A stretch of 64,000 nt of DNA from Anseongella ginsenosidimutans. GTDB lineage: Bacteria; Bacteroidota; Bacteroidia; Sphingobacteriales; Sphingobacteriaceae. The stretch lies in NCBI RefSeq assembly GCF_008033235.1, contig NZ_CP042432.1:3348001-3412000 (forward strand), read 5' to 3'. A model generated the notes under the pieces. It was not told where the DNA came from. It saw only the letters and a list, made by a program, of their open reading frames with translations, and did not search any database. This document shows positions 34,081-37,651 of this stretch, in pieces (position 1 is the stretch's first letter; each line of letters begins with the position of its first letter). The position numbers and the translations under genes were made by a program.

Positions 34081-35700
34081 ATGAATATACAGCAACGTTT
34101 ATTGTGCTTTCTTTTTCTTATTTTAAGTATTCCCGCATGGGCTCAGGAAAGACCTAAACTGGTGGTCGGGATTGTGGTGGACCAGATGCGATACGATTAC
34201 CTTTACCGGTATTACGATAAATACTCCGAAAACGGCCTGAAGAAGTTAATGACTGAAGGATTTAACTGCCGGAACAATCATTACAATTATATTCCCACCT
34301 ATACCGGCCCCGGCCACGCTTCTATATATACCGGAACTTCTCCCGCCATCAACGGAATAGCCGGCAATGACTGGTATGACCGGTACAAAGATGATATGAT
34401 GTATTGCGCCGAAGACAAAACGGTATCATCCGTGGGAAGCGATTCCGACGCAGGACAAATGTCACCAAGAAACCTGCTCGCTTCCACTATTACCGACCAG
34501 CTTCGCCTGGCCAGTAATAAACGCTCAAAAGTTGTAGGTGTATCTTTAAAGGATCGCGGCAGCATTCTTCCCGCCGGCCATATGCCCACCGCCGCCTATT
34601 GGTTTGATTCCTCCAACGGCGCGTTTATCAGCAGCACCTATTATATGAATGAGTTGCCAGGATGGGTGAAAAAGTTCAATTCCCGGGATCTTGCAAAAAA
34701 ATACCTCTCCCAAAAATGGAAAACCCTGCTACCCATAGATGAATATATTGAGAGTACGGCCGACGATAAACCTTATGAAAACACACTTTCCGGTGAAGAA
34801 AAGCCTGTTTTCCCGCATAAACTAAAGTATAGTGACACAGATTACGGGATCATAAGGTCTACGCCTTTCGGCAATTCCATCAGCAAAGACTTTGCTATTG
34901 CCGCTATCGAAGGAGAAGACATGGGTGAAGATGAGATCACCGATTTCCTGGCGCTTAGCTTTTCATCCACAGACTACGTGGGACATGGCTTTGGCCCCTA
35001 TTCTGTCGAAGCACAAGACACTTACCTCCGGCTGGACAGGGACATCGCAGAGTTGCTTGAATACCTTGATAAACGGATTGGCAAGGAAAACGTACTGGTA
35101 TTTCTGACAGCCGACCACGGGGCCGCAGATGTGCCCGCCTTTTCGCAGGAAGAAGGCATTCCTGCAGGCGTACTCAATAGCAAAGAAACATTCGATGCAC
35201 TTAAAAATTACCTTAAAGAAAAACTGGGCGATGAAGACTGGGTGCTTCATATCGCCAATTATCAAATTTACCTGGACCGGGAATTGCTCGCGGAGAAAGA
35301 AATTTCTATTAACGAGGTCTTCCGCCTTACCAGGGACTTCCTGCTTTCAAAAGAAGGCATTTATAACGTCGTAAATCTCCAGGATCTGTCTACTGCGAAT
35401 GTCCCTTCCAACTACCTTGACCTGATTCGCAACGGGTATAACCCAAAAAGATCAGGTGACCTCCTGGTCTTATTGGAGCCCAACTGGTTCCAGGGAAGCA
35501 GAAAAGGTACTACTCATGGGTCTATGTTCGCTTACGACACACACATACCGCTGCTTTGGTACGGTTTTAACGTCCCTGCCGGAGAAACTACCCGCAAAAC
35601 TCATATTACTGATATAGCTCCCACAATTGCACAGTTACTGTACATATTAGAACCTAACGGAACTATCGGCGAGCCTATCGGAGAAGTTACCGGGCGTTAA
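34081..35700 (+). CDS. PafA-type alkaline phosphatase, secreted
   Basis: This 539-aa exported phosphatase of the alkaline phosphatase/nucleotide pyrophosphatase superfamily resembles PafA of Elizabethkingia. It carries a signal peptide (MNIQQRLLCFLFLILSIPAW, cleavage after AQ). Metal and catalytic residues are present: Asp in VVDQMRYDYL, nucleophile Thr75 in TYTGPGHASIYTG, SSTDYVGHGFGPYS, and TADHGAADVP. It would hydrolyse phosphate monoesters in the periplasm. The start is ATG 34081, because a longer in-frame start at 34024 overlaps the promoter. Its last 54 bp overlap the convergent Y-polymerase gene. Confidence 0.92.
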   Translation: MNIQQRLLCFLFLILSIPAWAQERPKLVVGIVVDQMRYDYLYRYYDKYSENGLKKLMTEGFNCRNNHYNYIPTYTGPGHASIYTGTSPAINGIAGNDWYDRYKDDMMYCAEDKTVSSVGSDSDAGQMSPRNLLASTITDQLRLASNKRSKVVGVSLKDRGSILPAGHMPTAAYWFDSSNGAFISSTYYMNELPGWVKKFNSRDLAKKYLSQKWKTLLPIDEYIESTADDKPYENTLSGEEKPVFPHKLKYSDTDYGIIRSTPFGNSISKDFAIAAIEGEDMGEDEITDFLALSFSSTDYVGHGFGPYSVEAQDTYLRLDRDIAELLEYLDKRIGKENVLVFLTADHGAADVPAFSQEEGIPAGVLNSKETFDALKNYLKEKLGDEDWVLHIANYQIYLDRELLAEKEISINEVFRLTRDFLLSKEGIYNVVNLQDLSTANVPSNYLDLIRNGYNPKRSGDLLVLLEPNWFQGSRKGTTHGSMFAYDTHIPLLWYGFNVPAGETTRKTHITDIAPTIAQLLYILEPNGTIGEPIGEVTGR

Positions 35701-36756
35701 CATTGCGGGGCCGGCGAATAATTGCATTTGCCGGGCCCGTTGTTCCAGCTCACCGAAACGCAGTCCGATCATCCGGACACTTTTTGATTTGTCATAAAGC
35801 ACGTGAAAAAGATCCTGTGCTTTGGAAGCCAGGTTTTTTCCGATAACTACCGGGGGGACAGGGGCTTTGCGCACTGCAGTAGTTAAATCCGGGTAACCAA
35901 GCTTCACGGATACCAGGGAAGCTGTCATCCCGTTCTTACGGAGGGAATAGCTGAGTTTATCAGCCATGGAATTTAAAATGGAAAGCAGGCGCGACGGATT
36001 ATGGCAGTCCCTGGTAAAGGTAACCTCCGTTGAAACTGAAGCAGGATCCCTATAAGGGACCAGCGCCTGGTGACAGATACCGTTTGCTTCCTGCCAGGCG
36101 ATCGTTCCTCTTTTCCCAAGCAGGCGCTGTATCTTTCCGGGTGACATGGCGGCCAGCTGTCCGATGCTGATAATGCCTTTCTTTTTAAGCAGTTCCCGCA
36201 TTCCTTCGTGAGGAAATGGAAGCTCATCAATGGAGAAGGGCGCCAGGAATTGCTTTTCAGCTCCAGGAAGTATGCACCTTTCCTGTTCAGGGCCCGTATG
36301 CAAGGCCGCCATGGCAGATACAAACTTACTGGACGATAATCCCATGGAAACCGGCATACCTGTTTCACGCACTATCCGTTGTTTTAATTCCCTGGCCCAT
36401 TTCCAGCACTCCGGATAATTCCCTACCGCTGATAGATCGGCAAAAAAACGATCGACAGCCGCCTTTTCAAGCACCGGAACCGCGTCTGCCAGCACACCTG
36501 CGAACTGCTCCGACCGGCGTTGGTAACGCTCCATATCCCCGGGTATGACAATGGCGTGAGGAGCAAGTTTCCGGGCTGCGCCCACTTCCATAGAAGCGTG
36601 TATGCCAAAAGCCCGGCATTCATGGCTGCAGGAAAGTACTTCCTGCTTGTCTTCATCAATAACAATCACCGCTTTCCCTTCCAGCGAAGGATTTTTCAAA
36701 CGCTCGGCTGAAACAAAGAAATTGTCCGGTCGCAAATGCAGGATAGCTCTGTCCAT
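35647..36756 (-). CDS. Y-family DNA polymerase homologue with lost catalytic acidic residues
   Basis: This 369-aa protein has the Y-family fold (palm/fingers 1-165, thumb with HhH 166-235, little finger 245-345). The family N-terminus normally reads D-x-D-x-FF, but here it is HLRPDNFF, so the first metal-binding Asp is Arg9. The second motif, normally S-I-D-E, reads AVDRFFAD, keeping Asp102 but replacing the Glu by Arg103. Two of three metal ligands are therefore lost and polymerase activity is unlikely. The C-terminus keeps a probable beta-clamp motif QMQLF (343-347). This recalls ImuB, an inactive adaptor in mutagenic repair. It is divergent from a LexA-like gene and shares its operator region. 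Confidence 0.85.
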   Translation of the reverse strand: MDRAILHLRPDNFFVSAERLKNPSLEGKAVIVIDEDKQEVLSCSHECRAFGIHASMEVGAARKLAPHAIVIPGDMERYQRRSEQFAGVLADAVPVLEKAAVDRFFADLSAVGNYPECWKWARELKQRIVRETGMPVSMGLSSSKFVSAMAALHTGPEQERCILPGAEKQFLAPFSIDELPFPHEGMRELLKKKGIISIGQLAAMSPGKIQRLLGKRGTIAWQEANGICHQALVPYRDPASVSTEVTFTRDCHNPSRLLSILNSMADKLSYSLRKNGMTASLVSVKLGYPDLTTAVRKAPVPPVVIGKNLASKAQDLFHVLYDKSKSVRMIGLRFGELEQRARQMQLFAGPAMLTPGNFSDRLADSSVRF

Positions 36757-36786: not shown

Positions 36787-36828
36787 TTACTAACTTTATT
36801 AGCAAATATACGCTAAATATTTTAGTAA
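36787..36828. promoter_or_regulatory. 42-bp dyad between LexA-like gene and Y-polymerase gene
   Basis: Outer arms TTACTAA (36787-36793) / TTAGTAA (36822-36828) and inner arms TTAGC (36799-36803) / GCTAA (36812-36816) share one centre at 36807.5. The dyad fills most of the 91-bp gap between the divergent genes. The adjacent XRE-S24 repressor is the obvious candidate to bind it and control both genes. Confidence 0.65.
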
Positions 36829-36847: not shown

Positions 36848-37651
36848 ATGGGCAATATAGCAGGCAACCTGAAATACCTCAGGAAAAAGAAAGGGCTTAC
36901 ACAGCAGCAACTGGCTGATACATTAAGTGTTAAGCGCCCGGTAATTGGCGCGTACGAAGAAGGCAGGGCGGAACCAAAGACCGAGTTACTCAGAGAAATA
37001 GCTATTTTTTTTAGTATCACGGTAGATGAACTGGTAAGTAAAGAACTCAGCGACCGCTACTTCGAGCAGAAGAAAAAGCAGGCCGAGCAGGAACAGTTCC
37101 ATGTCGGGAAGCAATTAAAAGTGCTTAGTATTACGGTAGACAGCAATGACCGGGAGAACATCGAGCTGGTCCCCGCAAAAGCCAGCGCAGGGTATCTTAA
37201 CGGGTATGCCGACCCTGAATTCATTTCCGAATTACCCCGCTTTCACCTGCCTATGCTCAAAGGCGGAACCTTCCGCGCTTTTGAGTTGAAAGGCGACTCC
37301 ATGCTGCCTCTGCTGCCGGGAACGATAGTTATAGCTGAATACCTGGATAACTGGAACCAGGCTAAATCCGGCGCCACCTATGTATTGCTCACAAAGAACG
37401 ACGGCGTTGTATATAAGCGCCTGCAGAATAAATTACGGGAGCAAAAAGCATTCCGGCTGATTTCCGACAACAAGGCCTACGATCCTTATTCTGTTCCTGC
37501 CGACGATGTACTTGAAGTATGGAAGGCCAGGGCCTATATCAGCACGGTGTTCCCTGACCCCGGCGAAGAGCCTTCCCTTGAAAAGCTTACCGAAATGGTA
37601 CAACACCTTCAAAAATCAGTTAGCGGCCTGAAAAAAGAAGAAGACAATTAA
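36848..37651 (+). CDS. LexA-like XRE-S24 autoproteolytic repressor
   Basis: This 267-aa protein has an XRE HTH (about 7-62) joined to an S24 peptidase domain (about 115-240). The self-cleavage set is complete: Ala114-Gly115 bond (KASAGYL), catalytic Ser151 (KGDSMLP) and Lys190 (VVYKRL). It should therefore cleave itself in response to RecA filaments, like LexA, UmuD or phage CI repressors, and derepress its targets. The C-terminus ends in a short coiled coil. It is divergent from the inactive Y-polymerase gene with a dyad operator in between. No UmuD is present, so this protein probably acts as the damage switch of this pair. Confidence 0.9.
   Translation: MGNIAGNLKYLRKKKGLTQQQLADTLSVKRPVIGAYEEGRAEPKTELLREIAIFFSITVDELVSKELSDRYFEQKKKQAEQEQFHVGKQLKVLSITVDSNDRENIELVPAKASAGYLNGYADPEFISELPRFHLPMLKGGTFRAFELKGDSMLPLLPGTIVIAEYLDNWNQAKSGATYVLLTKNDGVVYKRLQNKLREQKAFRLISDNKAYDPYSVPADDVLEVWKARAYISTVFPDPGEEPSLEKLTEMVQHLQKSVSGLKKEEDN

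Follow-up and report, generated by a model that had tools for sequence, protein, structure and literature searches.

The question of what a Y-family DNA polymerase homologue does once it has lost its catalytic residues is raised by a gene of Anseongella ginsenosidimutans that lies back-to-back with the gene of a LexA-like SOS regulator. We analyzed this gene within a 64,000-nucleotide stretch of the genome (contig NZ_CP042432.1, positions 3,348,001 to 3,412,000; called the window below, with coordinates counted from its first letter). The open reading frame occupies positions 35647-36756 on the minus strand and codes for a protein of 369 amino acids, which we term iPolY and which was assigned via the ORF, Pfam domains, alignment, tree and structure model as a dead Y-family protein derived from the Bacteroid PolY2 group. 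The gene stands alone, with no operon partner, and a search of the open-licence literature yielded no published work on iPolY itself. Its 3' end overlaps a convergent gene for an alkaline-phosphatase-like protein by 54 bases (35647-35700), and the same arrangement is seen at the orthologue from a second Anseongella species described below.

Pfam searches with iPolY returned matches to the IMS (E=2.4e-35) and IMS_C (E=7.4e-17) domains, and the sequence comparison with solved DinB and Dpo4 chains gave a best E-value of 8.6e-37; by domains and structure matches, the protein has the palm-fingers-thumb-little finger fold. An AF2 model built from 11 sequences reached a pLDDT of 83.5 and was used instead of an earlier run with six sequences (pLDDT 64.7); scans of viral contigs yielded only active relatives, which were used for alignment depth. 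The model shows a Y-family core that matches MsDpo4 (4dez) at 2.1 Å over 230 residues, whereas a high overall rmsd to full-length chains leaves the little finger without a firm placement. The original prediction that the rest of the Y-family fold is intact holds for the fold as such, but not for its function, as further polymerase residues are lost.

The catalytic positions of iPolY were located by aligning it with E. coli DinB, whose metal ligands are D8, D103 and E104. The HLRPDNFF motif (residues 7-14, codons at 36715-36738, minus strand) aligns with HVDMDCFF of DinB and places Arg9 at the position of the first catalytic Asp, while AVDRFF aligns with SLDEAY, so that Asp102 is retained and the catalytic Glu is replaced by Arg103 (codons of V101-D102-R103 at 36448-36456, minus strand). 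The reading frame and both substitutions at metal-ligand positions, as originally proposed, are thus reproduced exactly. The second Asp of HLRPDNFF (D11) is present in iPolY and is a Glu in the orthologue, which otherwise shows the same set of R9, D102 and R103 in place of three acidic ligands. In the Bacteroid PolY2 group, the D/D/E motif is intact in each of the 67 relatives that could be read. DinB and Dpo4 become inactive when these acidic ligands are lost. A sequencing error at the arginine codons was rejected because several base changes would be needed per codon (CGA for R9 and CGT for R103 in the window gene, compared to GAY and GAR in the relatives) and because an independent species carries both arginines, with R103 encoded by a different codon (CGC).

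The losses extend to other parts of the polymerase. The lysine of the KP motif (K155), which contacts the triphosphate in active relatives, is replaced by Gly in both Anseongella proteins (codons of G155-P156 at 36289-36294, minus strand), the fingers tyrosine Y45 is replaced by His or Ala, and the fingers arginine R48 is missing in just one of them (Arg/Glu), leaving the set of triphosphate contacts incomplete. Moreover, the thumb-hairpin glycine G183 is a His in both species, and other expected DNA contacts that are near-invariant in active PolY2 proteins are replaced in both, such as K239 by Ala or Gly and R287 by Gly. The protein ends 22 amino acids after the clamp motif, and the tail at the site of the RecA-NT motif (AMDxIRNRFGxxxVxRA in active PolY2) is degenerate (35647-35715, minus strand). 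The predicted β-clamp-binding motif QMQLF itself is present at residues 343-347 as claimed before (codons at 35716-35730, minus strand); it occupies the QxxLF position of the relatives, is also found in the orthologue, and lies in a part of the model with low confidence (residues 342-369). Judged from these residues, the Y-family homologue iPolY is catalytically dead but has kept its clamp motif. The loss of polymerase parts goes beyond the two residues noted at first, and the observation is stronger than originally reported.

The descent of iPolY was analyzed with a maximum-likelihood tree of 70 sequences, in which the two Anseongella proteins form the sister group of an active PolY2 encoded by a different genus within the family (genome G080; support values of 100/96). 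Their stem branch measures 3.05 changes per site and is followed by tips of ordinary length. The tree placement is less sure because the stem branch is so long, but synteny agrees with it independently: the PolY2 of G080 is intact and occupies the same locus, divergent from the same S24 regulator gene with a CTAA-N5-TTAG site between them and with no DnaE2 adjacent. By tree and synteny, iPolY descends from the active Bacteroidetes PolY2 group, although it has neither the intact active site nor the RecA-NT motif of that group. A recent duplication of the genome's own PolY2 operon was rejected as its origin, since the PolY2 copies of the genus branch elsewhere in the tree and the same-locus protein of G080 is the sister. 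An ImuB left over from a broken cassette was rejected as well, with the imuB gene of the genome being separate and iPolY grouping with PolY2.

A GTDB scan with short peptide patterns, which distant orthologues would escape, gave one species-level match. This orthologue is encoded in a metagenome-assembled genome labelled Anseongella ginsenosidimutans (L008; the same protein occurs in G001) and shares 67% identity with iPolY; its host is a second Anseongella species related to the one of the window. R9, R103, QMQLF, the neighbouring genes and the operators described below are all kept. No additional orthologue was found in 400 genomes of the family or in 395 genomes of the phylum, and in a search of the class with a mixed alignment as query, the best 29 other loci of 231 matches were all active. 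A widespread family was rejected on these grounds, and the suggestion of a repair adaptor across Bacteroidota did not survive the phylum search, as orthologues were found in the genus Anseongella only.

The pair of inactive proteins allowed estimates of selection, which refer to this one species pair only. The pN/pS value was 0.295, compared to 0.308 for the active PolY2 proteins of these two species; at a pS of 0.69, synonymous sites are near saturation, and the derived dN/dS of about 0.12 is a rough value because dS is close to saturation. Identity between the two inactive proteins was 0.55 in the fingers, 0.64 in the palm, 0.76 in the thumb and 0.73 in the little finger, resulting in a difference of -0.143 between fingers plus palm and thumb plus little finger. 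The same difference averaged +0.090 in 1729 pairs of active relatives, which are not mutually independent, with a minimum of -0.079 and none of the 1729 as low as -0.143. The fingers region is relaxed, and the two proteins share 78 derived residues almost never found in active relatives, 42 of which are located in the thumb and the linker/little finger. These patterns indicate that iPolY is under purifying selection and that the focus of constraint has shifted away from palm and fingers towards thumb and little finger. The earlier statement that the changes are not random decay is borne out by the intact ORF in two species, the pN/pS value, the shared derived residues and the kept operators.

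The divergent gene at 36848-37651 on the plus strand codes for a protein of 267 amino acids with HTH_3 and Peptidase_S24 domains, identified by Pfam and by its residues as a LexA-like SOS regulator; the cleavage residues are present as Ala-Gly (ASAGY), Ser (GDSM) and Lys (VYKR). A non-canonical LexA of Bacteroidetes is known to control the SOS response via CTAA-N5-TTAG sites located upstream of genes for error-prone polymerases (PMC8565304). Two such palindromes, operator 1 (CTAACTTTATTAG, 36790-36802) and operator 2 (CTAAATATTTTAG, 36813-36825), lie within the 91-bp gap between iPolY and the S24 gene. They are the only two exact matches in the 64-kb window, where 0.86 were expected by chance, and a block of about 44 bp holding both is nearly unchanged in the second species. 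The divergent gene, previously taken as a hint of damage control, can thus be assigned as a regulator of the Bacteroidetes SOS type. Genome-wide, there are 24 CTAA-N5-TTAG sites, including further ones just before imuA, recN and genes for a radical-SAM (SplB-like) protein, an exonuclease/GIY-YIG protein and a DNA-alkylation-repair protein, while sites inside transposase genes or elsewhere are probably due to chance. The regulator was found in 136 of 138 near-complete family genomes with one match each. The operators in its promoter and the adjacent regulator, whose cleavage residues are intact, strongly suggest that iPolY is induced in the SOS response. The usual neighbour divergent from the S24 regulator in the family is a protein of 113-133 amino acids with a VTDRNRS motif and no Pfam match, which shares the SOS site; it is missing from both Anseongella genomes and located downstream of PolY2 in G080.

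Four Y-family proteins are encoded in the genome, namely DinB, an active PolY2, ImuB and iPolY. The gene of the active PolY2 precedes that of a 980-aa DnaE-type polymerase near 3.00 Mb, and an imuA-imuB-dnaE2 cassette is located at 3.85 Mb, apart from iPolY; the ImuB of this cassette carries a QEAFW motif and a RecA-NT-like stretch. The claim that no imuA or dnaE2 lies nearby is therefore correct for the locus but not for the genome, where imuA-imuB-dnaE2 and PolY2-DnaE2 occur elsewhere. The DnaE2B type has been described from genomes without ImuA and ImuB (PMC12926913), and the presence of both imuA-imuB-dnaE2 (3.85 Mb) and PolY2-DnaE2 (3.00 Mb) in one genome is an apparent exception, with the type being assigned by context only. 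Beside the PolY2-DnaE operon there is another S24 regulator gene (L009, 3609-4511, near 3.004 Mb), in which a frameshift within a run of C divides the helix-turn-helix; its orthologue (L073, 4877-5671) is intact, and the frameshift could be genuine or an artefact of sequencing. Two IMG/VR contigs of viral class (L107, 3001-7105 and L108, 2151-7123) likewise encode an active PolY2 with a DnaE-type polymerase behind it, and the latter contig also carries an S24 regulator gene, suggesting that the PolY2-DnaE module can be mobile.

From the observed residues, selection, descent, operators and regulator, we infer SOS induction at this locus, clamp binding and an occupancy role, and tentatively favour iPolY as an SOS-induced, non-catalytic accessory protein which occupies the clamp and sets the access of translesion polymerases. 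In this scenario, an active Bacteroidetes PolY2 gene would first have become established next to that of the SOS regulator. A single burst of accelerated change in the Anseongella lineage would then have deprived the protein of its metal binding, its dNTP binding and the tail that docks on RecA, after which the pseudo-polymerase would have been held by selection for other properties. Upon DNA damage, cleavage of the LexA-like S24 regulator would release the two CTAA-N5-TTAG operators, and iPolY would be induced along with imuA-imuB-dnaE2 and other SOS genes. It would then dock on the β-clamp via QMQLF, with thumb and little finger as its working surface. While occupying the clamp, it would either restrict or queue the access of DinB, PolY2 and DnaE2 as active translesion polymerases, or keep the clamp ready for a partner. 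Clamp occupancy appears the most likely role because iPolY can neither synthesise DNA nor, apparently, bind RecA or ImuA; a role through the latter two proteins is unlikely judging from the degenerate tail. Possible, if more doubtful, is the wider proposal of a stand-alone pseudo-polymerase at the promoter of an SOS regulator, which works on the clamp without RecA, ImuA or a linked polymerase and represents a dedicated inducible regulator of polymerase choice derived from a translesion polymerase.

The 42 derived residues of thumb and linker/little finger could just as well point to an interface for a new partner as to simple occupancy. As a mutasome adaptor, iPolY would use these surfaces to bridge a DnaE2, either from the imu cassette or the PolY2-linked one, to the clamp, as proposed for ImuB or Streptomyces DinB2. 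Such a role is consistent with the presence of both DnaE2-type polymerases in the genome, the SOS operator common to iPolY and imuA, the concentration of new conserved residues in exactly these domains, and the inactive PolY-DnaE2 pairs proposed for other phyla (PMC12926913). However, iPolY does not adjoin dnaE2 in either species, it lacks ImuB-C, its RecA-NT is degenerate although ImuB and the inactive PolYs described in the literature share this motif (PMC6511836, PMC12926913), and the imu cassette already has an ImuB of its own with QEAFW and a RecA-NT-like stretch. We rate the adaptor as less likely than clamp occupancy. We consider it improbable that iPolY is a non-catalytic binder of primer-template DNA that shields DNA ends at lesions or keeps them available to other repair enzymes, assisted by clamp binding: the Y-family fold with thumb and little finger is kept and the arginines replacing acidic ligands could bind DNA phosphates, but both species carry substitutions at the expected DNA contacts G183, K239 and R287.

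The very long stem branch, the many lost conserved residues and the relaxed fingers region might also be expected of a duplicate that is decaying into a pseudogene. This is very improbable considering that the ORF is intact in two species at synonymous saturation with a pN/pS close to that of active PolY2, and that 67% identity, 78 shared derived residues and the operators are conserved. Finally, Asp102 remains, together with Asp11 in one species, and might serve a rearranged metal site in a polymerase that is still active. With two of three ligands being arginines and with the KP lysine and the fingers Tyr gone in both species and the fingers Arg in one, this hardly seems credible, and ordinary polymerase work is excluded as far as these residues can tell. 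Among these readings, we therefore retain clamp occupancy as the preferred one.

Inactive Y-family groups have so far been read as RecA- or ImuA-linked parts of mutasomes. With its clamp motif kept and both RecA-NT and the linked polymerase gone, iPolY separates clamp binding from mutasome assembly, and G080, where the sister polymerase at this locus is intact, makes a before/after comparison possible. If iPolY throttles translesion synthesis, it would represent an induced brake on mutagenesis whose gene lies back-to-back with that of the SOS repressor; on present data iPolY is known from one genus with two species.

The known inactive Y-family proteins are ImuB, scDinB2, gbDinB2 and a DnaE2X-linked group; members of the named groups contain RecA-NT and occur together with DnaE2 and/or ImuB-C (PMC6511836, PMC12926913). 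Isolated inactive members such as iPolY are to be expected, because proteins without catalytic residues were reported to be dispersed or to form diffuse groups (PMC12926913). The closest known proteins are those of Bacteroid PolY2 (PMC6511836, PMC12926913), which are active, often associated with DnaE2 and often encoded divergently from an S24 regulator. They represent the direct parent group by tree and share 34-40% identity, the domain order and the position of the clamp motif with iPolY, whereas D/D/E, the fingers YEAR motif, KP, the thumb hairpin and RecA-NT, all kept in PolY2, are lost or degraded in iPolY. ImuB, to which iPolY had been likened, also combines a catalytically dead core with a clamp motif and SOS regulation (predicted from the operators in the case of iPolY), but is of other descent, and iPolY contains neither RecA-NT nor ImuB-C and has no imuA or dnaE2 neighbour; the comparison does not hold, given the origin from PolY2 and the separate imuA-imuB-dnaE2 cassette of the genome. 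The scDinB2 and gbDinB2 proteins of the DnaE2B-iPolY-RecA type (PMC12926913) are likewise dead Y-family members outside ImuB and nearer to the PolY core, but they keep RecA-NT and associate with DnaE2B, whereas iPolY lacks both features and stands alone at the SOS regulator. The regulator itself resembles the Bacteroidetes LexA-like S24 proteins (PMC8565304) in its HTH_3 and S24 domains, its Ala-Gly, Ser and Lys residues and the CTAA-N5-TTAG sites before error-prone polymerase genes; in most of the family its divergent gene codes for a small uncharacterised protein, whereas a Y-family protein takes this place in Anseongella. By its residues, descent and gene context, iPolY is placed outside the named inactive Y-family groups, plausibly as an accessory factor.
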